Source of the DNA: Citreicoccus inhibens
GTDB lineage: Bacteria; Myxococcota; Myxococcia; Myxococcales; Myxococcaceae
Direction: 5' to 3'
Length of the DNA stretch: 64,000 nt
NCBI RefSeq assembly: GCF_019039035.1
Contig: NZ_JAHNZT010000008.1
Span: forward strand, 124,001 to 188,000
Positions 41,124 to 57,243 of the stretch are shown one piece after another (the stretch's first letter is position 1; every line of letters begins with the position of its first letter). Both the position numbers and the translations under genes were made by a program. Under the pieces are notes generated by a model. The model did no database searches, was not told where the DNA came from, and worked only from the letters and a program-made list of their open reading frames with translations.

Positions 41124-42767
41124 GTGCCGCCCGTGAAGACTCGGCCAGAGGCGGCGGGGACCAACGGGCCCCGGCACATCCACCAGTTCGTTGCCCGGTT
41201 GGCCTGGGGAGATGCGGTCGGCAACCAGGTCCGCTACCTGCAAAGCCTGCTGCGCTCGTGGGGCCATGTCTCGGAGATCTACGCGGAGCAATGGGACGAC
41301 TCGTGCCGGGAGCAGGTCCGCCCCGCGCGAGATTACCCCCGCGAGGCCTCGCGAGACTCGGTGCTCATCGTCCACCACAGCTTCGAGTCGCGCATGGTGC
41401 CGATGATTGCCCGGTCGCCTGGCCGCAAGCTGCTCGTGTACCACAACGTCACGCCCGCCCGACTCTTCGAGGGTTTCGAGCGCAAGGTGGCGATCGCCTG
41501 CGACGCGGCCCGCGCGGAGCTGCTCGCCATGCGCGAGCACATGGACGCGGCCTTCGCCTACTCGCGCTTCAGCGCCGAGGAGCTGGCTGCCGCCGGATAC
41601 CGCCACGTCGCAGTGCTGCCCTTCGCCATTGACTGGAGCTGCTTCGACACGCCCCCGGACGCCACGCTCCAGGCCGAGCTGGACGACGGCTGCGCCAACA
41701 TCCTCTTCGTCGGCCGCGCCGTGCCCAGCAAGCGCATGGATGACGTGCTGCGCGTCTTCACCGCGTACCAGCGCCTGTACCAGCCCCGAAGCCGCCTGCT
41801 CATCGCGGGCGCGCTCAACCGCGACTCGCCCTACGGCGCATTCCTCCTGGGCCTCAAGGACCTGCTGGGCCCCGAGCGCGTCCACTTCCTCGGCCGCGTG
41901 AGCGCCGCGCAGCTCTCCGCGTGCTTCTCGGTGGCCACGGCCTACCTGTCCATGAGCCGCCATGAAGGCTTCGGCGTGCCTTTGCTGGAGGCCATGTACC
42001 GAGGCGTCCCCGTCGTGGCCCACGCCGCGGCCGCCGTGCCCGAGACGATGGCCGGCGCGGGCATCGCCACCCTCTCGCGAGATCCAATGGAGGTCGCGCA
42101 GCTCCTCGCCGTGCTGGAGCGCTCGGCCCCCCTCCGCACGCAAGTCATCGACGCGCAGCGGGCCCGCGTGGCCGCGTTCTCCCAGGACCTCGTCGCCGAG
42201 CAGGTGCGCGAGGCCTTGTCCGCCTGCTTCGAGGGGCGCATGCCCGCCCTTCCCGCGCCCCCGGAGCCCGCCCGCGTCGAGCTCATCTGCCCGGGCTACT
42301 CACTGCGCCCGGACGCGCCCATGTCCCGGCTGACGCGTGCGCTGGCTTCGCGCGTGCCCGGAGCGCGCGTGCTGGCCCTGCGCCCACGCACCCTCGCGCC
42401 GCGCGCTGCCCCAGGCCCCGAGCACATCGACGGCCCGCCCGTGTGGCACTTCACGGCGGATCAACCCGTGGGACTTCCCGCGGAGCCCTTGCCTGGCTCG
42501 TCCGCGATGGAGACCGCCGCGCGCGCATCGTCCGCGCCCCATGTCTACTTGGGCGTGGACACCGAGGTCGCGGCCACGCTTTTGCCCCTTGCCTCCGCGC
42601 CGGCCTGGGGCGCGCGCTCCGCCACCGAGGCACGCGCGGAGGGCGACGCATCCCAGCGACTGGGAGCACGCCTGTTCGAGCTTGCGCCCGACAGCCTCGA
42701 CGCCACGGTCGAAGCCTTGCTCCAATCCCTCTCTTCCCGAGGCGGCCCCCTGCATGAACGCGGATGA
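41124..42767 (+). CDS. GT4-type glycosyltransferase
   Basis: A 547-aa protein. GTG 41124 has a perfect AGGAGG at 41109-41114. Residues about 15-370 are a GT-B enzyme: acceptor half with RYLQSLLRSWGHVSEIYAEQ and LLVYHNVTPARLF, donor half with NILFVGRAVPSKRMDDVLRV, SMSRHEGFGVPLLEAMYRGV (E-x7-E) and VPETMAGAGI. The C-terminal part (about 385-547) is Ala/Pro-rich with no clear fold and ends with short helices. It adds one sugar to the nascent surface glycan. The next gene starts inside its last codons. Confidence 0.88.
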   Translation: MPPVKTRPEAAGTNGPRHIHQFVARLAWGDAVGNQVRYLQSLLRSWGHVSEIYAEQWDDSCREQVRPARDYPREASRDSVLIVHHSFESRMVPMIARSPGRKLLVYHNVTPARLFEGFERKVAIACDAARAELLAMREHMDAAFAYSRFSAEELAAAGYRHVAVLPFAIDWSCFDTPPDATLQAELDDGCANILFVGRAVPSKRMDDVLRVFTAYQRLYQPRSRLLIAGALNRDSPYGAFLLGLKDLLGPERVHFLGRVSAAQLSACFSVATAYLSMSRHEGFGVPLLEAMYRGVPVVAHAAAAVPETMAGAGIATLSRDPMEVAQLLAVLERSAPLRTQVIDAQRARVAAFSQDLVAEQVREALSACFEGRMPALPAPPEPARVELICPGYSLRPDAPMSRLTRALASRVPGARVLALRPRTLAPRAAPGPEHIDGPPVWHFTADQPVGLPAEPLPGSSAMETAARASSAPHVYLGVDTEVAATLLPLASAPAWGARSATEARAEGDASQRLGARLFELAPDSLDATVEALLQSLSSRGGPLHERG

Positions 42768-43215
42768 TCTGCTGACCCAGTCGCCCACGGCCGAGGCCGT
42801 CGCCGCGCACACCCGTCAGCTCCCCGAGCCCGACCCGAAGGCGCAGCAGGCCCTGCGCGAGGCACTGGAGTCCTCCACGCGGACCCCCGTGGCCGCCGAG
42901 TGGCCAACCCTGCTCCAGGAAGCGCGCGGGAAGATGGACTCGCGCCATGCCGAGCCCGCCACGTCCCACCGTCCCGGCGTGGGCCCGGTGCTGGTGGCCG
43001 TCAAGCGCGCCTTCCGCTTCACGTTCCAGCCCTTCATCAACGAGATGCTGCGGCGTCAGGTGGAGTTCAACGAGTCCATCCTCGACGCCCTTGCCACCGT
43101 CATCGAGAACCAGCGCGAGCATGCGCGCACGCAGGCGCAGTGGCGACGGGACGTGGAGGCACGCCTCGCTCGCCTCGAACCGGGCCCCAAGGGGCGCGGC
43201 GCAACGAAGCGCTGA
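42754..43215 (+). CDS. Small helical protein with SHR-KR-QxxFN module
   Basis: A 153-aa soluble, mostly helical protein overlapping the GT4 gene by 14 bp, so translation is coupled. Residues 71-116 contain SHRPGVGPVLVAVKRAFRF then PFINEMLRRQVEFNESILDA. The same pattern (SHR, KR, P, E-x-LRxQ, FN) occurs three times in the N-terminus of WbgA (51086-54883). From general knowledge, similar stretches appear next to methyltransferases and glycosyltransferases of O-antigen clusters. The C-terminal 40 residues form a charged helix (ENQREHARTQAQWRRDVEA), possibly a coiled coil. A docking or assembly role with the GT4 enzyme is inferred, not shown. Confidence 0.75.
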   Translation: MNADDLLTQSPTAEAVAAHTRQLPEPDPKAQQALREALESSTRTPVAAEWPTLLQEARGKMDSRHAEPATSHRPGVGPVLVAVKRAFRFTFQPFINEMLRRQVEFNESILDALATVIENQREHARTQAQWRRDVEARLARLEPGPKGRGATKR

Positions 43216-46653: not shown

Positions 46654-48957
46654 TCACGGCTCGTCGTGGCCAGCGACCTTCTTCAGCCTGCGGTGCAAGA
46701 AGGGCACGCGCTTGAGCGTGGTGTTCACCCGATCCACCACCGAGTAGCGCAGCGGCACGCTCTCGGAGCCTTCTCGGTTCGTCAGCCCCACCACCTGTTT
46801 CAGCATGGGGTGCACCAGCGGCACCTGCTTGATGGCGGAGTTCATCATGTCCACCACGTTGTAGCGCAGGGGCCGAGCCTCGACTCCCACGCTCGGAGGC
46901 ACCAACGCGGGCGCGGGCACGGCGTCCCCTCCAGCGGCGGGGTGCAACGCCCCAAAGGGGTCCGTCATCGCGTCGCGCGAATGCGACAGCAGCGCGAACA
47001 GACGCACCGAAGGATGCAAAGGGCCGGTCAGCCCTTCGTACATGCTCACCAGCAGTTGGAAGTGCTGCCGCCGGTCCATCGGCGAGCGCATCGAGCCAGG
47101 GCGACGCCGGTGGAAGAAGTGCACCTGGTTCGTCACCAGCAAGCGGTGGCCCCCCTGCACGAGCCGCAGGAACAGGTCCCAATCCTCGTAGGTGTGGAGC
47201 GACTCGTTGTAGCGGTACTGCTCGAAGACCGAGCGTCGCAGGAGCGCCGTGGCGCACGACATGCGGTTCATCACCAGGGAGTACGTCGGGCAGTCCCCCA
47301 GGAAGGTGATGAAGTCCACGAACTGCCGCGCCGCCAGCTCCTCGTCCGAGTGGAAGGAACCCGCCGTGGGCACCACGCCCGAGAAGTCCTGACGTGCCTC
47401 CAGCGCCGCCACCGCGTGCGCGAGGAACTCCGGCCCGATGCAGTCGTCGGCATCCAACGGGAGGACGTACTCGCCACGCGCGGCCCGCAGGCCCAGGTTG
47501 CGCGCCCCCGGCAGTCCCCGATTGATGGGCGAGCGGAGCACTCGAACCCCCGCGTCGCCCGCGCGCTCCAGCCGCGACAGCACGTGCGCGTCGAAGGGGT
47601 CCGTCGAGCCGTCGTCCACGACGATGACCTCGACCTCCGGATAGGTGCTGGCCGCGACGCTGCGGATCGCCTCGGGCAGATAGCGGCCCAGGTTGTAGTT
47701 CGTGATGACCACGCTCACGAGCGGCGTGCGCGCGGGCGCCTTCACGGGCGTGGGCTTGCGCGTCTCCCAGAAGGGCCGCGCCACGCTCCATGCCACCGGC
47801 GGCAGCAGGGGCCCCTCCAGCGCGCGCCGCATCGCCTCGGCCAGACCATCCAAGCCGCCGTCGTACTTCTGGCAGTTGACGCCATCGACGAACGGGCTGT
47901 CGTCTCCGAAGGCCAGGCACTTCCCGTTGAGGACCACCTGACTGCCCGCCGCGGACGCCTCGTAGGCCGTCAGGTTGAGCGACTCGAAGTCGGAGGTGAT
48001 GACCACCACCCCCGAGCGCATCAGCGCCTCGCGGTCCGGCCCCGGCTTGGTGAAGACGAAGCGAGCGCGGAGATCCGCCGGGACCAGGGACTTGATGTAC
48101 GTCAGGTAGTCCGGCTCGAAGCAGTGGCAGGCCAACACGGCCAGGCCCTCATAGGCCTTCCACGTTCGCATCAGCAGCACCGCGGCTCGCACGAACATGT
48201 CCGGCCGCTTCACCTGCTGAATCTTGGTGATGAACAGCAGGTTGCGCTTGTGCGGCGGCACCCGAGCCAGCGCGTCCCCGGGCGGTGGCGCGTCCACGAC
48301 CACCGGAGGGAACTCCACCGTCACCTTGCGCATCCACGACGCATCGAAGCCGTAGTAGCTCCGATTGAACTCCGCGATGCAGCCCAGGTGCGCCACCACG
48401 TGGTCCGCGTCGAGCAGCGACTTGCGCTCGATCTCGAACCGGCCCACGTTCTCCACCTCCAGGGTGTTGGGCTCCTGGTTCATCAGCACGCCGTAGCTGG
48501 TGTGCAGCCGCACGGCGATGGTGGTGTCCCGGAACGCCAGCCCCAGGTGCTTCTCCTGCAGCGAGCAGAAGGCCCACCCGTGGAAGTCGGGAAACTCAAT
48601 GACATCGAAGCGCAAGCCCTCGGCCTCGCGGGCCTTGAGGAAGCGCATGAACTCCAGTGACTCGCCATGCCAGCGCGCGTGCCGGAACGCCGCGAGGGGT
48701 GGGTACGTGCCATCCGCGTCAGCGGTGCGCTGGTGCGGCGGCCGATAGCGAACGACGTGCGCCTTCACCCGGCCGCCAAAGAACAGCTCCACCCGCTCCG
48801 GCTGGATGCCCACCGAGTCCGGGAGGAGGACGTGGAACTCCACGTCCGGGGCGTGCTGGAGCGAGTCCTGGATGAGGTTGTGATTGATGCGGCCGATGCC
48901 GCCAGCGGTGAAGGGGTACAGCTCGTCAGTGACGAGGCAGACGCGCGTGACGCTCAT
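46654..48957 (-). CDS. Bimodular GT4-GT2 glycosyltransferase
   Basis: A 767-aa protein with two enzymes. Residues 1-390 are GT-B (GT4): CLVTDELYPFTAGGIGRINH, NLLFITKIQQVKRPDMFVRA and SDFESLNLTAYEASAAGSQV. Residues about 410-650 are GT-A (GT2): LVSVVITNYNLGRYLPEAIR, VIVVDDGSTDPFD, LPLDADDCIGPEF (DxD) and YEDWDLFLRL (ED catalytic pair). The last 70 residues carry two copies of a 29-aa repeat starting PLRYxVVD. It should add two linkages to the O-antigen chain. It is the last gene of the wzm operon, and its start overlaps the previous stop by four bases. Confidence 0.9.
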   Translation of the reverse strand: MSVTRVCLVTDELYPFTAGGIGRINHNLIQDSLQHAPDVEFHVLLPDSVGIQPERVELFFGGRVKAHVVRYRPPHQRTADADGTYPPLAAFRHARWHGESLEFMRFLKAREAEGLRFDVIEFPDFHGWAFCSLQEKHLGLAFRDTTIAVRLHTSYGVLMNQEPNTLEVENVGRFEIERKSLLDADHVVAHLGCIAEFNRSYYGFDASWMRKVTVEFPPVVVDAPPPGDALARVPPHKRNLLFITKIQQVKRPDMFVRAAVLLMRTWKAYEGLAVLACHCFEPDYLTYIKSLVPADLRARFVFTKPGPDREALMRSGVVVITSDFESLNLTAYEASAAGSQVVLNGKCLAFGDDSPFVDGVNCQKYDGGLDGLAEAMRRALEGPLLPPVAWSVARPFWETRKPTPVKAPARTPLVSVVITNYNLGRYLPEAIRSVAASTYPEVEVIVVDDGSTDPFDAHVLSRLERAGDAGVRVLRSPINRGLPGARNLGLRAARGEYVLPLDADDCIGPEFLAHAVAALEARQDFSGVVPTAGSFHSDEELAARQFVDFITFLGDCPTYSLVMNRMSCATALLRRSVFEQYRYNESLHTYEDWDLFLRLVQGGHRLLVTNQVHFFHRRRPGSMRSPMDRRQHFQLLVSMYEGLTGPLHPSVRLFALLSHSRDAMTDPFGALHPAAGGDAVPAPALVPPSVGVEARPLRYNVVDMMNSAIKQVPLVHPMLKQVVGLTNREGSESVPLRYSVVDRVNTTLKRVPFLHRRLKKVAGHDEP
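46669..46872 (-). repeat. 29-residue tandem repeat at glycosyltransferase C-terminus
   Basis: Residues 696-724 and 735-763 share 16 of 29 positions in the pattern PLRYxVVDxxN, KxVPxxH, LKxVxG, with a 10-residue linker. Each unit looks like a basic amphipathic helix pair. Confidence 0.7.
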
Positions 48958-51029
48958 GGCTGCGTGAACTCGAGATAGCGGTGGACGGCCTCGGAGCAGA
49001 GGACGCGGATATAGTCGTCGAGCGTCTGTGCATATTCATCGGGCGAGCGCTCGCGGAGCACCAGGAGCCGCTCCAAGGCCGTGCTCATCTCTCCGAGCGA
49101 GCCGGTCCCCGTCACCTGAACCAGCCGCTGATACGGATGGGAATCCAAGGCGCCCAGCGACAGGGGCCCCGTGAGGCACGCCACGCCGTGCGCCAGTCCC
49201 TCCAGCGCGGTCATCGGCTGGCACTCCGTCAACGTGACGTTGAAGAGCACATCCACCTCGCCAATGAGGCGGAACAGCGCGGCGCGATCCAACCGCCCCG
49301 CGTTCACCACCGAGGCGCGCACCGGCATCACCGGGTTCGAGTGGAAGGGGTTGGTGACGAAGACCGTGTCCAGCCTCGACGACGTCGCCGCGACGAAGAC
49401 GTTGGTGAAGAAGTTCTTCCACCAGTTGGCCGGCGTGGGCACGAAGGCCGCGCGCGTGGACGGCGTCCGGTACCGCCGCGCTTCGGGCGCGATGCGGGGC
49501 GGCAGGTTGAGCAGCGTCCGCGGATGGATGAGCGGCGAGAGCAGGCTCATCTCCGGCTTGACGCACGCCAGCCCGTCCAGCGTCCCGTCCGCCCGCAACT
49601 CCAGGAGCTGCGAGAACGTCTTCACCTCCACGTCGAAGTGGAACTGCGTCGTGGAGCCATGCCACGCGCAGTACAGCCGCACCGCATGGCCAAACACGTG
49701 GCGCAGCATCCGCGCCACTTCCAGCGCATTGGGCGAGAAGCCGTGGAAGAGGACCGCGCGCGAGCCGAACCGCTCACAGGCCTCCGCCACGCGGCGCAGG
49801 TCCGACTCCGTCAGGGGGCGATCCGCGGTGATGGCCACCTTGCGACCGGGCGCGTATCCCGCGGCCGCGCGGATGCCATGCCATTCCTGATGGAAGACAT
49901 GCACCAGGCGGGACAGGCGCGGCTCCGCATGGGCCCACTGCGTGTCCATGAGGGCATCGATGACGACGCCGTCCTGCGTGGGTGCATGCGCCGGCGCGGG
50001 GGGCTCGGCCGGGGTCAATCGGGTGGGCGCCTCGGCGACTTCGGTGCGCACCCGAACCAGCGCATCCGCCAGCGTGGACATCCGCTGGCGTCGCGCGGTG
50101 CGCTCGCGCTCCTGGGCAAGCTGGGCGCGCAGTCCCGCCGTCGCGGTCTCCGGCCCCGCGCCACGCAATCCCTGCTCGGCGCGCTCGGCCCACACGCGCA
50201 GCCGCGGCAGGGCCTGCGCCTGCAGCGCCTCCGCCGTCACCGGCAGGCCCTCGTCGGACGCGCGCTCGGGCGAGAGGAACTGGAAGAAGCGCCGAGGTCG
50301 CTCGCCATTGCGGCGGAACACATAGACGTCGCGCCCCGCGAGCAAGCCGACGCCGTGGTGGACATCCCATCCGCTCGGCATCGCGTCCGCCAAGGGATGC
50401 AACCACGCATCCGGCGCGCCCTGCTCCCAGACCGGGAACGGCACGTGCTCGTTCTCAATCAGACACAGGGAGCCCTCGGGGCTCACCCACTCCGCCAGCG
50501 ACTCCAACAGCGCCGGAATGCGCGCGGGCGGCTCATGCCGAAGAACAGACACGGTGAAGACGACGTCGAAGCGCTTGCCCTTCAGCGCGGCGCGAGCGTC
50601 CGGCCCGCAGAACAGACGCGCGTCCAGCGGCCGAGGCGCCTCGGGCGCGGCCTTGCGCAGCGACGCCACGAGCGACTCCGCCACGTCGTAGCCGTGGTAG
50701 CGCAAGAGCGGCAGGGACTCGAACAGCGTCGCGTGGTGCCCCGCGCCGCAGCCAAACTCGAGCACGTCGAGTGGCTGGCCGCGCCGCCGCAGCTCGGCGT
50801 TGAGCACCCCGAGCAGGACACGCTCCTGCTGGGGATCGACCTGACCGTCGCGAAGCGCCCGAGCCTGGACCCATTCCGGGACAGCGGTGCCGCGCTCCGT
50901 CGAACGGTCGTGGATGTGGAGAAGAGGAAGCGGAGCCGGCTCCCCCTCTGGACCCGGGCTCGGAATGGAATCGGACATGTCTTGATCGCTCGCCACGGGA
51001 TTGGCACGAGCCCTCGCAGTGTCGGGCAT
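48954..51029 (-). CDS. Bimodular methyltransferase-glycosyltransferase
   Basis: A 691-aa protein. ATG 51029 follows GGGAG at ideal spacing; a TTG 18 bp upstream is unlikely. Residues about 75-230 are a SAM methyltransferase: VLEFGCGAGHHATLF (motif I), YHGYDVAESLVASL, FDVVFTVSVLRHEP. A helical linker with RAQLAQERERTARRQRMSTL leads to a GT-B-type region (about 400-690) with GRKVAITADRPLTESDLRRV, LYCAWHGSTTQFHFDVEVKT and FNVTLTECQPMTALEGLAHG (ExxxxxE-like donor site). Such fusions methylate and extend or cap O-polysaccharide chains. The upstream gene is wbgA. Confidence 0.85.
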   Translation of the reverse strand: MPDTARARANPVASDQDMSDSIPSPGPEGEPAPLPLLHIHDRSTERGTAVPEWVQARALRDGQVDPQQERVLLGVLNAELRRRGQPLDVLEFGCGAGHHATLFESLPLLRYHGYDVAESLVASLRKAAPEAPRPLDARLFCGPDARAALKGKRFDVVFTVSVLRHEPPARIPALLESLAEWVSPEGSLCLIENEHVPFPVWEQGAPDAWLHPLADAMPSGWDVHHGVGLLAGRDVYVFRRNGERPRRFFQFLSPERASDEGLPVTAEALQAQALPRLRVWAERAEQGLRGAGPETATAGLRAQLAQERERTARRQRMSTLADALVRVRTEVAEAPTRLTPAEPPAPAHAPTQDGVVIDALMDTQWAHAEPRLSRLVHVFHQEWHGIRAAAGYAPGRKVAITADRPLTESDLRRVAEACERFGSRAVLFHGFSPNALEVARMLRHVFGHAVRLYCAWHGSTTQFHFDVEVKTFSQLLELRADGTLDGLACVKPEMSLLSPLIHPRTLLNLPPRIAPEARRYRTPSTRAAFVPTPANWWKNFFTNVFVAATSSRLDTVFVTNPFHSNPVMPVRASVVNAGRLDRAALFRLIGEVDVLFNVTLTECQPMTALEGLAHGVACLTGPLSLGALDSHPYQRLVQVTGTGSLGEMSTALERLLVLRERSPDEYAQTLDDYIRVLCSEAVHRYLEFTQP

Positions 51030-51085
51030 CCAGTCTCCCGGGGTCAATATCGACGCGCGCCCCCAGGTCCTGATGCGAGCAGACC

Positions 51086-54000
51086 CTATGCCTGCCGGAC
51101 CGTGCGCCCGAGAAGATGGTCCATCATCCGATCCGCCTCTGACTCCCAGGTCGTGCGACGCACGCGCTCGGCGGCGCTCACGCCCAATCTCTGACGCAGC
51201 GAGGAATCACTCACCGCGCGCCGCAACTGACTGAGCACCGAGCTCGCGGTGGGCGCGGCCAGCAGGCAGTTCTCCCCGTCCTGCAGCAACCAATGATTGG
51301 CGGGATTGTCATTGGTCACCACGCAGACGCCGCACGCCATCATCTCCAGGGGCAGATAGGACGGGTGCTTCGTGAACATGAAGCACAGGCCCACGTCGCA
51401 CTCGCGATAGAGCGCGGCGGTGCGCTCCGCGGGCAGCACGCCCAGGTTCGTCACCAGCCCTCGGACGCCGTAGGACTCGGGGTTCCACTCCGCCCCCGCC
51501 GTGACGATGTCCACGGCCGAGCCCAGCTCGAGCTTGAGCCGTGCCAGCGCCGCGAGCCCCAGCTCGAACCCATTCCGCTCGTTCCCGGGGCGCCCGTAGA
51601 AGAACACGCGCACGGGCCCCGAGCGGGCCGGGCGCCGCGCATGGAACACGTCGCCCTCCACCGCGGGCTCGAAGGCGAAGCCGCCCATTCCGTGCTGCGC
51701 GGCCACGTGGTCACGCAGGCCCGGCGTGTTGAAGAGGCCCTGGAAGCCCAAGAGGTACGTCTGCTCGGCCAACGCCCACTGGGTCCCCGCGGCGAAGAAC
51801 ATCGGCTCGTAGTCCTGCACGAAGTACGCGCGCACGGCCGCGCGCGGGTGCCGGAGGACCTGATAGGCGGACGTCCAATACGTGGCGACCGCCAGGTCGC
51901 ACGCGGGCAGCGAGGCCAGCTCCGCGGGGCCAGACAGCACGCGGAACGCCCCCGCGACGGAGGGGAACGTCGCGGCCACGCGAGCCTCGAAGTCCCCCGG
52001 ACGCGCGCCCGGCCGATCGTAGATGACGAAGTCGTTGCGCACGCCATGGCGCCGATTCATCAAGTCCGCGAAGCGGAAGAGGGTCTGAACGCCCGCGTAC
52101 ACATGGCCGAACGCGGGCACGAACCACGTCGCCGTTTCGACCCGGCCGCGCGAGCGCAGCGAGGCCAGGGCCCTGGGCGCCTCGTCGCGAGAGCGGCGCG
52201 CCTCCTCCGGAGTGAAGTCCAACTCGCTCAGGTGCTCCACCAGGTGCCGCTGCTGGCGGGCGCGTTCCTCCAACGCGGGATCCTGAGCGCTCGGCACGTC
52301 GCGGCCGAGGGTGCGCACCGCGAACGCCTCACCGTCCTCCTCGTGCTCGCGCAGCACGCAGTCCGTGCCGCGCAGCGTGAGGTTGGGGTTGTAGAACGGG
52401 TCTCCGCGCGGGCCCAACCACGGCCGGTAGGCCACGAAGGACCACCAGTAGTCGGACTCGGGAATGGCATCCGCGCGGCGGCTGGCGGACTCATGGTGGA
52501 TGAGGCGCGCGTGCGGCGTGTACACCACGCGCAGCCCCTGGCGGTTGAGCCGCAACCCCAGCTCCACGTCGCTGCCGCAGACCTGGAAGCGCTCGTCGAA
52601 GCCGCCCAGCTCCTCCCAGACGGCCCGGCGCACCATCACGCAGGCGCTGGTGACGGACAGCCAGTTGCGCGTCCACTGCGCATGGCCAAAGGGCGTGGCC
52701 ACGGGCGCGTCCGGAAGCCGCCAGAACGGGTGGCCCGCGAAGCCCGTGAGCCCCACGACGCAGCCCGCGTGCTGCACCGTCCCCTCGGGGAAGAGCAGCT
52801 TGCAGCCCACCGCGCCCACCTCGGGGCGCTGGGCCTGGGACACCAGTTCCTCCAACCAGCCAGGGTCCACCACCTCCATGTCATTGTTGAGGAAGAGGAG
52901 CAGCTCCCCCGTCGCCTGCTTCGCCGCCCAGTTGTTGATGGCCGGGTAGTTGAAGGGGTGGTCCCACGTGAGCTTCACGAGCCGTGGATCCGTGAGGCGC
53001 TCCAGCAGCGCGAACGTCTCCGGCTTCGTGCTGTTGTTGGAGACGAGCAGCACCTCGTAGTTCGGATACGCGGTGAGCCCGAGCAGCGACGTCACCAGCG
53101 TGTCGAGCAGGTCCGGCCGGTCCTTGAACGGAACGACGATGGAGACCTTGGGTGCGCCACGCACGGGGTACCGAACCCGATACTGCGTGGGCGCGGGGCT
53201 CGACACCTCGGCGGCCTCACCGGTGCGCGCCAGGTGCTCACGCAGCGCGCGCGCCCCCGCGTCCGAGGCCCGCGTCAGCCCCGCGGACTGACTGGAGAAC
53301 GAGGAGGGATGGGCGCGCCAGTGGTACAGCAACCGAGGCACATGGCCGATGCCCCGCGTGGCCTCGCTCAGGCGCAGCACCAGCTCGTAGTCCTGGGAGC
53401 CGTCGAAGCCCTCGCGCAGCCCGCCCACCTTCTCCAGGAGGCCGCGGCGCGCCACCACGAAGTGGCAGATGTAATTGACCGAGCGCAGCAGGTCCGGCGA
53501 CCAGTCCGGCTTGAAAAAGGGCGCGGTGCGCCGCCCCTCGGAGTCGAGCCGATCCTCATCGCTGTAGACGACGTCCAGCGACGGCTCCACCGAGAAGGCG
53601 AGCACGGCCTCCGCCAACGCATGCGGCGCCAGCGTGTCGTCATGGTCGAGGAAGCCCACGAACTCGCCCCGCGCGGCGGCGAGCCCCGCGTTGGTGGCCC
53701 GGGCGATTCCGCCGTTGCGCTCCAGCGACACCACGCGAATGCGCGAGTCGCTCGCGGCGGCCTCACGCAGCATCCGCGCGACGTGCGGCGCCGGGCTCGC
53801 GTCATCGACGAGCACCCACTCCCACTCGCCATAGAGCTGCGCCCGGACGGACGCGAGGCACTCGCGGAAGAACGGCTCGGGCGTGTCGTAGACCGGGGTG
53901 ACAATCGAGACGAGCGGCCGGCGCTCCAACTGGGCCACGGCGTCGCGCGCGGCGGCAATCTCCCCCGGCTCACGTCGGGCGCACCACCCCGCGAAGTCTC

Positions 54001-54883
54001 CCAGCTCCGGAGGCTGGGGCGCGGGCGTGCGCGTCCCCAACACCCCCGCCAGGGCCAGCACGACCTGTTCGTTGAAGCGCGACTGACGGCGCAGCAGCTC
54101 TCCCCACAGGGGAGAGGCGGCCCGTAGGACCTTGGGGAGCGCATCCGCGCGCAGCGGATCCACCTGGCCACACAGCTCCGCGATGAGCCGCGCCGCAGTG
54201 GCCTCATCTGGAGGCACGGGCCCCGCCGCGGTGACCAGGGCCTCCACCAGCGCGGTGTTCCAACCCCGCTGACGTTCGAGCAACGCCTCCAGCACCGGCC
54301 CCACCGCGGAGAGGTACGAGCGCTTCGCGGCCTGGACCACCGAGCCCAACGCACCGCCTCGGTGCGAGCGCACCACCTGCCAGCGCGTGGGGTCGGCCTT
54401 CGCCTCCAACTGCTGGCGGACCCACGGCGCCAACGTCTCGCGCAGGCCCAGCCCGCGGTGCACTGACAGGTGCTCCAACACGCGAACCGCGGCCTTGTTG
54501 AAGTCCGCCTGAGGCCGCAGCGCCTCCACGTGGAGCGGACGAAGCCCATCGACGAAGGCACGCTTGGTGGCGGTCACCACCCGCCCGAAGCGCGCCCGAT
54601 GGGACGCGGGCACTTCGAACTCGTGCGGCACCGAGAGGCGCGCGGCCTCTTGAAGCGGCGACAGCGGAAGAGAACCCGAGGGCCGAGCCTGGTGCAGCGC
54701 CTGGGTGAGCAGGCGCAGCGTGGCCTCCAGGGCCGTGATCTCCTCACACCGCTCGGAGGCGCACGGCCGGCGCTCGTCGAGCAGCCGCCGCACCACGGCC
54801 ACCATCCGCGCCAGGTCCCCCGCGTCCGGCGCCGCGTCCGGCGCCGCTGGCTCCCCGGCCAGCCTCTCCAGAATCGTCTTCAC
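51086..54883 (-). CDS. wbgA: Trimodular O-antigen glycosyltransferase (WbgA-like)
   Basis: A 1265-aa protein, close in size and gene order to M. xanthus WbgA (formerly RfbC, about 1276 aa). GTG 54883 lies behind GGGGAGGG. Residues 93-282 hold three copies of an SHR/KR/QxxFN helical module. GT2 domain A (about 322-540): LVSIVTPVYDTPEPFFREC, WVLVDDASP, FLDHDDTLAP. GT2 domain B (about 585-810): KVSIVVPFKDRPDLLDTLV, LFLNNDMEVVDPGWLEEL. GT4-like domain (about 920-1265): ETATWFVPAFGHVYAGVQTL, FMFTKHPSYLPLEMMACGVC, resembling rhamnosyltransferases such as WsaF. It likely makes several linkages of the O-antigen repeat, fitting the rhamnose genes nearby. Confidence 0.9.
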   Translation of the reverse strand: MKTILERLAGEPAAPDAAPDAGDLARMVAVVRRLLDERRPCASERCEEITALEATLRLLTQALHQARPSGSLPLSPLQEAARLSVPHEFEVPASHRARFGRVVTATKRAFVDGLRPLHVEALRPQADFNKAAVRVLEHLSVHRGLGLRETLAPWVRQQLEAKADPTRWQVVRSHRGGALGSVVQAAKRSYLSAVGPVLEALLERQRGWNTALVEALVTAAGPVPPDEATAARLIAELCGQVDPLRADALPKVLRAASPLWGELLRRQSRFNEQVVLALAGVLGTRTPAPQPPELGDFAGWCARREPGEIAAARDAVAQLERRPLVSIVTPVYDTPEPFFRECLASVRAQLYGEWEWVLVDDASPAPHVARMLREAAASDSRIRVVSLERNGGIARATNAGLAAARGEFVGFLDHDDTLAPHALAEAVLAFSVEPSLDVVYSDEDRLDSEGRRTAPFFKPDWSPDLLRSVNYICHFVVARRGLLEKVGGLREGFDGSQDYELVLRLSEATRGIGHVPRLLYHWRAHPSSFSSQSAGLTRASDAGARALREHLARTGEAAEVSSPAPTQYRVRYPVRGAPKVSIVVPFKDRPDLLDTLVTSLLGLTAYPNYEVLLVSNNSTKPETFALLERLTDPRLVKLTWDHPFNYPAINNWAAKQATGELLLFLNNDMEVVDPGWLEELVSQAQRPEVGAVGCKLLFPEGTVQHAGCVVGLTGFAGHPFWRLPDAPVATPFGHAQWTRNWLSVTSACVMVRRAVWEELGGFDERFQVCGSDVELGLRLNRQGLRVVYTPHARLIHHESASRRADAIPESDYWWSFVAYRPWLGPRGDPFYNPNLTLRGTDCVLREHEEDGEAFAVRTLGRDVPSAQDPALEERARQQRHLVEHLSELDFTPEEARRSRDEAPRALASLRSRGRVETATWFVPAFGHVYAGVQTLFRFADLMNRRHGVRNDFVIYDRPGARPGDFEARVAATFPSVAGAFRVLSGPAELASLPACDLAVATYWTSAYQVLRHPRAAVRAYFVQDYEPMFFAAGTQWALAEQTYLLGFQGLFNTPGLRDHVAAQHGMGGFAFEPAVEGDVFHARRPARSGPVRVFFYGRPGNERNGFELGLAALARLKLELGSAVDIVTAGAEWNPESYGVRGLVTNLGVLPAERTAALYRECDVGLCFMFTKHPSYLPLEMMACGVCVVTNDNPANHWLLQDGENCLLAAPTASSVLSQLRRAVSDSSLRQRLGVSAAERVRRTTWESEADRMMDHLLGRTVRQA

Positions 54884-54914: not shown

Positions 54915-56252
54915 CTACGAGGCCACGCTGTTGGCCTGCGTCGAGGCCGGGCGATTCGCCGCGGCCGCGTCCTCCACCACCCACCGATGCACGGGCCGGA
55001 ACACACCGCGATCCACCTGCGGCGCGGACACCTGGAACGTGCGGCGCTCCACCACCGTGGAGCCCGCGCATCGCGCCGTCACGCGCAGCACGTACTCGCC
55101 CGCGAGCAACCCCACCCGCTCCATCACGAAGCGAAGGCGCCCCTCGGGCGGCAGGTGCTGGGGGAGCGCCACGGACTCCATCCGCGTGCTCGTCTCATAG
55201 AGCGTGCGGCCATCCGAGGACAGCAGCGACAGCTCGAACTCGGCGTCCGAGCACCCCGCGTCCGCCGCGTACTCGACGCAGACTTCCGCGCCCTGCTCGG
55301 GCGTCAGCGCCTCCACGAGCTCGCCGGTCGTGCCCTTCCAGCATACGCCGGTGATGCGCACCGGCGACGGCGCGGCCACGGGAGCGGGCTCCGGCGTCAC
55401 GTTCACCTGAGGCAGGGCGCCGCCCCCCTCGGTCAGCGCGGGCGGCGTGAAGACCACCGACTGAGCCTCGGCCAGGGCGATGGCCTGCTTGTACTCCTTG
55501 GTGATCTCCGCCGGCGGGCCCACGCGGCGCATGTAGCCACCGTCGATCCACGCGACCAGGTCACACCAGCGATCCACCGTGCCCAGGTCATGGGTCACCA
55601 GGACGATGGTCTTTCCCTGCGCCTTGAACTCGGTCATCTTCGCGAGGCTCTTCTTGGCGAAGTGCTCGTCGCCCACCGCGAGGATCTCGTCGATGATGAG
55701 GATGTCCGGGTCCACGTGCGTGGCCACCGAGAACGCCAGGCGCATGTACATGCCGCTGGAGTAGGTGCGCACCGGCTCGTCGATGAACTCGCCCAGTTCG
55801 CTGAAGGCGATGATCTCATCCATGCGCGCCCGAACTTCCGCGCGCGACATCCCCAGGATGATGCCGTTGATGAGGATGTTCTCGCGGCCGGAGAAGTCCG
55901 GGTGGAACCCCGCGCCCAGGTCCAACAGCGCGGAGATGCGACCGTTGATCTGCATCTCTCCGGACGTGGGGGCGTAGATGCCGGTGATGAGCTTGAGCAG
56001 CGTGCTCTTCCCCGAGCCATTGCGGCCGATGATGCCGACCGTCTTCCCCCGGGGGATGACGAGGTTGATGCCCCGCAGCGCGGTGATGAGCCCCTTCTCC
56101 TTGGGCAAGCGCTGGCCGCGCAACCACCGCAGCAGCTCGGACTTGAAGGTCGTGTACTCGCCCCGGATGGTGCGCTTCTTGAAGCTCTTGACGACATCGC
56201 GCAGGACGATGGCGTCGTCGGATGGCAGCGTCTGCATGGCGGGGGGACTCAA
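54915..56252 (-). CDS. wzt: O-antigen ABC exporter ATP-binding protein
   Basis: A 445-aa protein. Residues about 10-260 are the ATPase: GIIGRNGSGKSTLLKLITG, GAGFHPDFSGRENI, TYSSGMYMRLAFSVATH (signature), ILIIDEILAVGDEHF and VTHDLGTVDRWCD. Residues about 280-430 are a beta-sandwich carbohydrate-binding domain that in Wzt proteins reads the chain-end of the O-polysaccharide. The start is taken as TTG 56252, which shares TTGA with the wzm stop and has GGAG five bases upstream; ATG 56237 has no ribosome-binding site. It powers export of lipid-linked O-antigen with Wzm. Confidence 0.95.
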   Translation of the reverse strand: MSPPAMQTLPSDDAIVLRDVVKSFKKRTIRGEYTTFKSELLRWLRGQRLPKEKGLITALRGINLVIPRGKTVGIIGRNGSGKSTLLKLITGIYAPTSGEMQINGRISALLDLGAGFHPDFSGRENILINGIILGMSRAEVRARMDEIIAFSELGEFIDEPVRTYSSGMYMRLAFSVATHVDPDILIIDEILAVGDEHFAKKSLAKMTEFKAQGKTIVLVTHDLGTVDRWCDLVAWIDGGYMRRVGPPAEITKEYKQAIALAEAQSVVFTPPALTEGGGALPQVNVTPEPAPVAAPSPVRITGVCWKGTTGELVEALTPEQGAEVCVEYAADAGCSDAEFELSLLSSDGRTLYETSTRMESVALPQHLPPEGRLRFVMERVGLLAGEYVLRVTARCAGSTVVERRTFQVSAPQVDRGVFRPVHRWVVEDAAAANRPASTQANSVAS

Positions 56253-57046
56253 ATCGACTCCGCGAACTCCTCGCGGCGGGCTTCGAAGATGGAGGAAGAG
56301 GCCCAGAGGAGCGCGACCGAGCACACGGCCAGGATCAACAAGGGCTCACCATCCGGCAGGCGGTGCTCGTAGAACATGGCCTGGTAGGACGTGATGATGA
56401 TGGACATCGGGTTGACCAGGCCCACCAGCATCCGCATCCTCTCGCTGTGAATCGTGGAGAGCTGGAACAACACCGGCGTGGCGAAGAACCACAGCGTCAT
56501 GAGGTTCATGACGATGTGCTGGAGGTCCCGGAACGTCACGTTCACCGCGGCCAGGATGTACGTCAGCGCCGTGGTGAAGCAGAGCTGGATGAGGACCACC
56601 GCCGGGAAGGCGATGATGTGCCACGTGGGCCACTGGCCGTAGAGCGCCCCCATCAGGAACATCAGGGGCAGCGACAGCACGTAGTTGCACAGGTTGGTGA
56701 CCACCACGGTGGTCGGCAGGACCTGGGCCGGGAAGCGGACCTTGGTCATCAAGTCCCGGCGGTCACTGATGGCGCTCGCGCCGCCACCAATGGAGCTGCT
56801 GAACCAGATCCACGGCAACAGGCCCACGAACATGAAGTAGGCGTAGTTGGGCGTGTTGTTGCGCATCACGACGGTGAACAGCAGCGCGTACACCATCATG
56901 TGCAGCATGGGGTTCAGGAACGTCCACAAGAACCCTAGGAACGAGCCACGGTAGCGCGCCTTCAGCTCGCGCTGGACGAGGCTGAGCAGCAGGCCCCGGT
57001 ACTGGTACAGCTCACGGACGAGGCGGATCATGAGAGCGGCCTTCAT
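56249..57046 (-). CDS. wzm: O-antigen ABC exporter permease
   Basis: A 265-aa ABC-2 type permease with six membrane helices (for example PMLHMMVYALLFTVVM, YFMFVGLLPWIWFSSSI, NYVLSLPLMFLMGALYG, IQLCFTTALTYILAAVNV). The amphipathic N-terminal segment LVQRELKARYRGSFLGFLWT is the family signature. With Wzt it moves finished O-polysaccharide across the inner membrane. ATG 57046 is used, ATG 57031 is possible. It heads the wzm-wzt-wbgA operon, which in M. xanthus is needed for O-antigen. The 230 bp between it and the tRNA gene contain no other feature I can see. Confidence 0.95.
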   Translation of the reverse strand: MKAALMIRLVRELYQYRGLLLSLVQRELKARYRGSFLGFLWTFLNPMLHMMVYALLFTVVMRNNTPNYAYFMFVGLLPWIWFSSSIGGGASAISDRRDLMTKVRFPAQVLPTTVVVTNLCNYVLSLPLMFLMGALYGQWPTWHIIAFPAVVLIQLCFTTALTYILAAVNVTFRDLQHIVMNLMTLWFFATPVLFQLSTIHSERMRMLVGLVNPMSIIITSYQAMFYEHRLPDGEPLLILAVCSVALLWASSSIFEARREEFAESI

Positions 57047-57243
57047 ATAGCAGGGCGAAGCCAGGATGCGAGGCAACAGGGGACCCCGCGCTGCGCCCTT
57101 CCCGCTGGGGACCGGCCCGTCTCCCCAGGAACCACGCAGGCCACCGAACCCCGCGTCGCCTGCTTCGCTTCCCTGCCACACCTTGTGAGTTCGGAGACGG
57201 GCTCGCCCGACCTGCGGCGGCGGCCCGGCCCCCGGAAAACAAA

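Follow-up and report, generated by a model that had tools for sequence, protein, structure and literature searches.

A helical module common to WbgA, a small GT4-paired protein and methyltransferases of other phyla, and its possible role as an adapter of glycan enzymes

The three N-terminal repeats of WbgA from Citreicoccus inhibens and a segment of a separate 153-aa protein, encoded in the same window (the whole stretch of 64,000 nucleotides that we analyzed), are homologues, judging from sequence comparisons in which their similarity goes beyond chance. We propose, with a probability of roughly 0.55, that the module they share is an adapter that sits on the surface of the inner membrane, oligomerises and recruits glycan enzymes there. 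It would be a portable part, serving enzymes for the assembly or modification of polyprenol-linked glycans. The conserved SHR loop would cap one long helix, the first 17 or so residues of which would form a cationic amphipathic stretch lying on or in the cytoplasmic membrane surface, and the second half, from Q..FN onward, would run into a coiled coil joining copies. WbgA and methyltransferases would have gained the module by fusion, the GT4 enzyme would gain it by binding a small protein encoded by a neighbouring, often overlapping gene, and the three copies in the single chain of WbgA would constitute a ready-made helical bundle. Enzymes bearing the module could then assemble into one complex beside Wzm/Wzt.

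Results

WbgA, an RfbC-like protein of 1265 aa (51086-54883, minus strand), carries three modules followed by two GT2 domains and a WsaF_C/GT4-type domain. Residues 93-282, encoded by positions 54038-54607, hold the repeats, which were delimited by HMM and AlphaFold: copy 1 (aa 93-137, 54473-54607) has the full form SHR-G-KR-P-Q-FN, copy 2 (aa 173-216, 54236-54367) the full form with WN, and copy 3 (aa 250-282, 54038-54136) is a half-module, P-LW-E-LRRQ-FN, all on the minus strand. Directly upstream of WbgA lies Wzt, the O-antigen ABC exporter ATPase (54915-56324, minus strand; weak Wzt_C match), with the exporter permease Wzm at 56249-57181 on the same strand; WbgA thus has the features of an RfbC/WbgA protein: it is large, contains several GT domains, lies immediately behind wzm-wzt and has the N-terminal modules. 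A protein with an N-terminal methyltransferase and without the module is encoded downstream of it (48954-51047, minus strand). The stand-alone module protein of 153 aa (42754-43215, plus strand) has its module core at aa 68-114 by HMM (42955-43095), with SHR at 71, KR at 84 and FN at 105. Upstream of it lies a GT4 glycosyltransferase gene (41124-42767, plus strand), the end of which overlaps the start of the small-protein gene by 14 bp, in agreement with the overlap reported by the sequence-only reading. The cluster also contains a second repeated helix, unrelated to the SHR-KR-Q-FN module: the GT767 protein (46654-48957, minus strand) has a duplicated ~29-aa basic helix, LRYNVVDMMNSAIKQVPLVHPMLKQV / LRYSVVDRVNTTLKRVPFLHRRLKKV, at its end, within the C-terminal ~90 aa. 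Weak relatives of this helix occur in G010 and, in the present genome, in a GT4 protein of 745 aa (G000:C71).

The module family was defined by an SHR loop, a G that follows after 3-4 residues, KR and, after a further 16 residues, Q..F/W-N; this pattern is complete in the small protein and in the first two copies of WbgA, and copy 3 matches its second half only. When 80 aa of the small protein were searched against the whole 9.05-Mb genome, WbgA copies 1, 2 and 3 were returned at E-values of 3e-4, 9e-3 and 0.2, together with the small protein itself and one unlinked gene; a match on contig C123 from this search, where no convincing gene is found, and another in the genome on C11 (E 0.29) were taken as chance. 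An HMM built from non-myxobacterial stand-alone proteins recognized the three copies at E 1.1e-7, 5.6e-7 and 0.006, and WbgA and the 153-aa protein were the only matches below E 1 among the 639 ORFs of the window. The same two proteins were singled out from these 639 ORFs by an HMM made from methyltransferase-fused proteins of other phyla. The triplication of WbgA 93-282 and the common pattern in the 153-aa protein, both put forward from the sequence alone, are therefore borne out at the coordinates given, as HMM and genome search recover the copies, and 56 of 98 relatives match as well.

AlphaFold models of the small protein and of WbgA (pLDDT 82.9 and 80.7, from 44 and 18 aligned sequences) predict the full copies as an SHR loop followed by a single long unbroken helix (aa 76-141 of the small protein, 100-144 and 178-219 of WbgA), and the half-module copy 3 as a helix at aa 258-282. 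The four segments thus fold alike in the predicted models, as the sequence-only reading would expect, with a helix in each and the SHR loop first in the full copies. The WbgA model has a pTM of 0.71 and aligns best to helical bundles, which suggests that its helices may pack together. Foldseek and VIA-align returned generic helical bundles only, with best Z values of 9.3 and 8.5 for WbgA that are common for long helices, an outcome that does not point to a new fold among these models; the comparison of the predicted models with viral structure models gave no match.

The composition of the helix predicts an amphipathic character that is strong in other phyla and weaker in WbgA. Outside Myxococcota, 89% of the helices exceed the lipid-binding score D of 1.34, compared with 3.5% of background 18-mers, and the first helix half has a mean hydrophobic moment of 0.45-0.52 and a net charge of about +3.6. 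On a helical wheel, the K/R columns 17, 18, 21 and 25 stand opposite the hydrophobic columns 12, 15, 16, 19, 20, 23, 26 and 27. These features point to a membrane-surface anchor in addition to protein docking. The mean D is 1.27 for the small myxobacterial forms, and 1.04 and 0.98 for WbgA copies 1 and 2, values at which the WbgA helices may merely pack on each other. One could ask whether the module acts by protein-protein docking only, WbgA, the small protein and their partners packing through their module helices in the cytoplasm with no membrane part. The compact bundle predicted for WbgA, the strict conservation of the polar Q and N within the helix and the lower amphipathicity of the WbgA copies would all suit such a role. 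However, most copies in other phyla are strongly cationic and amphipathic, and most genomes outside Myxococcaceae encode a single module protein, which often leaves it without another module as a docking partner. Docking without a membrane part is rather unlikely.

WbgA orthologues of other genera have the same three-copy layout, as do those of an outgroup family (L034/L053). Myxococcus xanthus rfbABC is a wzm-wzt-wbgA operon needed for O-antigen, and the WbgA/RfbC orthologue of M. xanthus AM003 (L144, 1276 aa) carries the same three modules; no role is assigned to these N-terminal repeats in Pfam, NCBIfam or the literature searched. Between species, identity is 0.68, 0.44 and 0.58 for copies 1, 2 and 3 and 0.37-0.39 for the linkers, so that the copies are better conserved than the linkers, copy 2 by a small margin. 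Within one WbgA, copies 1 and 2 share an identity of 0.30, lower than the 0.68 and 0.44 that each keeps between species, which indicates that the copies diverged long ago. The third copy had been described as having lost SHR and KR. Both are indeed absent, but simple loss does not describe the case: in WbgA orthologues copy 3 is always a half-module that keeps P-LW-E-RRQ-FN, an old truncated form whose conservation led us to reject decay. Some relatives depart from the common layout. In Hyalangium versicolor (L087), a 1500-aa open frame has two successive module sets with six matches, equivalent to two WbgA-like N-termini, and in some Corallococcus relatives of WbgA (L129, L155) variable tandem repeats of ~17 aa, EGAQGFGGGSSPEVAQTR, lie between modules 1 and 2.

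Beyond WbgA-like proteins, in which repeated modules precede GT2-GT2-GT4, the module occurs in two other forms, a methyltransferase fusion and a small GT4-adjacent protein. The presence of the module beside chain-building enzymes, seen at first in this cluster, thus extends far beyond it, through fusions and gene pairing involving both GT4 enzymes and methyltransferases. The gene of the small form adjoins or overlaps that of a GT4 in several phyla and in both gene orders. At myxobacterial loci, 183-228 bp separate the GT4 stop from the start of the module, with the exception of L070, where the nearest GT4 lies at a distance of 7.7 kb; in Aminicenantes, Nitrospinae, Paenibacillus and Sumerlaeota, the small form comes first and the GT4 gene downstream overlaps or abuts it. 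In an HMM-drawn sample of Acidobacteriota, a module protein is either fused to a methyltransferase or small and next to a GT4, and each small form that was read has an adjoining same-strand GT4 match, although the overlap at L230 is so large that it is not reliable. PF00534 has only 34 matches in the present genome, and both stand-alone module genes adjoin one of them. The second of these genes, unlinked to the window (C54:17040), lies 3' of a fused GT4-GT4 protein, the halves of which are related to the two kinds of GT4 that Paenibacillus, Nitrospinae and Sumerlaeota encode separately next to their module genes; by the gene-fusion argument, these GT4s and the module protein would form one functional unit. 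In a Sumerlaeaceae locus (L114:641-1597), the gene immediately before that of the small module protein encodes a polyprenyl synthetase (PF00348), which may connect the module with the lipid carrier.

The polysaccharide setting is not universal. At six loci (L081, L116, L124, L153, L154, L175) the small form is paired with a Peripla_BP_2-like (BtuF-like) protein of ~311 aa and not with a glycosyltransferase, as identified by Pfam in three of them and by a similar protein or a gene of equal size in the other three. At many Thermoanaerobaculia-type Acidobacteriota loci (L140, L122, L160, L162 and others), a module-methyltransferase gene lies immediately behind rplI, which encodes ribosomal protein L9, and close to an H+-pyrophosphatase gene. 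Because of these two settings, we rejected a restriction of the module to glycan clusters.

In the methyltransferase form, the module is followed by a heptad-like spacer and then by the SAM methyltransferase, which belongs to one of two unrelated families, the Methyltransf_23/MetW-like type or FkbM, the latter fusion being seen in Paenibacillus. The spacers measure 121-199 aa and most have a heptad-like periodicity. At L111 and L180, the fused gene comes directly after a Wzt with a Wzt_C domain, and module genes of Bacillota have Wzm/Wzt neighbours too. This arrangement could suggest a chain-length ruler made of an amphipathic helix, a coiled-coil spacer and a terminator methyltransferase, in reversed order with respect to WbdD, of which the stand-alone forms would be stubs. 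Having the module, the spacer and the methyltransferase on one chain, two such genes directly behind Wzt, and WbdD as a precedent (PMC3482155, PMC11231755) speaks for this idea. It leaves unexplained, however, the small proteins linked to GT4 and the triplication in a WbgA that has no methyltransferase, and the spacers of most members cluster around 121-148 aa. We consider a ruler improbable.

The spread of the module was assessed by scanning about 85,000 species genomes with the DNA pattern S/T-H-R-x3-G-x6-K-R-x16-Q-x2-F-N. The scan gave 104 stretches, nearly all of which the myxobacterial profile recognizes; they belong to Myxococcota, Acidobacteriota (Thermoanaerobaculia, Aminicenantes, Holophagales), Sumerlaeota, Nitrospinae, Dadabacteria, Bacillota and others. 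Since the pattern itself requires SHR, KR and Q..FN, the apparent invariance of these residues is inflated in this set, and conservation was re-read on matches found by the profile only, which was itself trained on pattern matches and is thus not fully independent: G is kept in 34/35, Q in 34/35, F in 35/35 and N in 34/35, and the KR positions are each basic in 94%. When genomes were drawn evenly, 5 of 299 Bacillota, 31 of 199 Acidobacteriota and, at E 1e-4, none of 398 Pseudomonadota had the module, the last being a phylum for which there was no positive control. The window proteins and 44 relatives matched no Pfam or NCBIfam family with their modules above the curated cut-offs, a profile search of solved structures in the PDB found no relative (one chance match, E 0.85), the pattern had no match in viral contigs and tblastn against plasmids gave a single insignificant match. 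Finally, long helices easily resemble each other and module proteins do give scattered coiled-coil Pfam matches, but a convergent low-complexity likeness with neither common ancestry nor common role is highly improbable and already contradicted, given that just two window proteins match with all copies in register, that no Pseudomonadota genome of the draw does, and that the K-R-16-Q spacing is fixed across phyla.

Discussion

The idea of a docking or scaffolding helix bundle, raised by the sequence-only reading, agrees with the homology, the like predicted folds and the fusions and pairing with GT4 enzymes and methyltransferases; the physical interaction is the part that we infer. To speak of a new system would be too strong, as scaffolds with a coiled coil and an amphipathic helix are already known from WbdD (PMC11231755, PMC3482155). 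What is new here is the sequence family, and the type of scaffold is already known.

In the adapter reading, the module would work in the manner of the non-homologous C-terminal region of WbdD from E. coli O9a and Klebsiella O3, which comprises a coiled-coil ruler, a membrane-associated amphipathic helix and a site that recruits WbdA (PMC11231755, PMC3482155). WbdD joins a non-catalytic amphipathic helix and a coiled coil to a methyltransferase in ABC-transporter-dependent glycan assembly, and this region organises or recruits glycosyltransferases (PMC11231755, PMC3482155). The methyltransferase-fused forms of the module would share this build, with a helix predicted from its composition to be amphipathic; for the module, the pairing with GT4 genes is suggestive of recruitment of a polymerase glycosyltransferase. 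Unlike that region, the module lies at the N-terminus and shows a signature of its own, SHR-KR-Q-FN; it also exists as a separate GT4-paired small protein and as a tandem triplicate, has no sequence match to WbdD and is absent from the Pseudomonadota sample. A methyltransferase on the coiled-coil chain is found only in the fused relatives of other phyla. As WbgA and the small protein have neither a methyltransferase nor a sequence match to WbdD, they are not members of the WbdD family. The methyltransferase/kinase-coiled-coil-GT proteins of the Klebsiella O7 ORF6 type are similar in that catalytic modules on a coiled coil make a membrane-associated scaffold, but they are described with N-terminal catalytic domains that precede the coiled coil (PMC11231755).

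Within the adapter reading that we favor, the module could also be a general plug: the helices of the small GT4 partner, of the methyltransferase and of WbgA would co-assemble in a mixed membrane bundle, and the WbgA triplicate would be the single-chain version of this oligomer. This extension is speculative and we regard it as rather doubtful. If it were true, polymerising and terminating enzymes would be wired together by one shared unnamed family in many phyla.

To our knowledge, the way in which bacteria bring soluble glycosyltransferases and tailoring enzymes together at the membrane for the synthesis of long glycans is understood only for a few enterobacterial examples. The module marks what appears to be a scaffold of this kind in Myxococcota, Acidobacteriota, Bacillota and Sumerlaeota, phyla that have no such models. 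Its profile lets annotators label many unannotated proteins, and it predicts partner pairs, each made of a module protein and the overlapping GT4, that are testable in Myxococcus.
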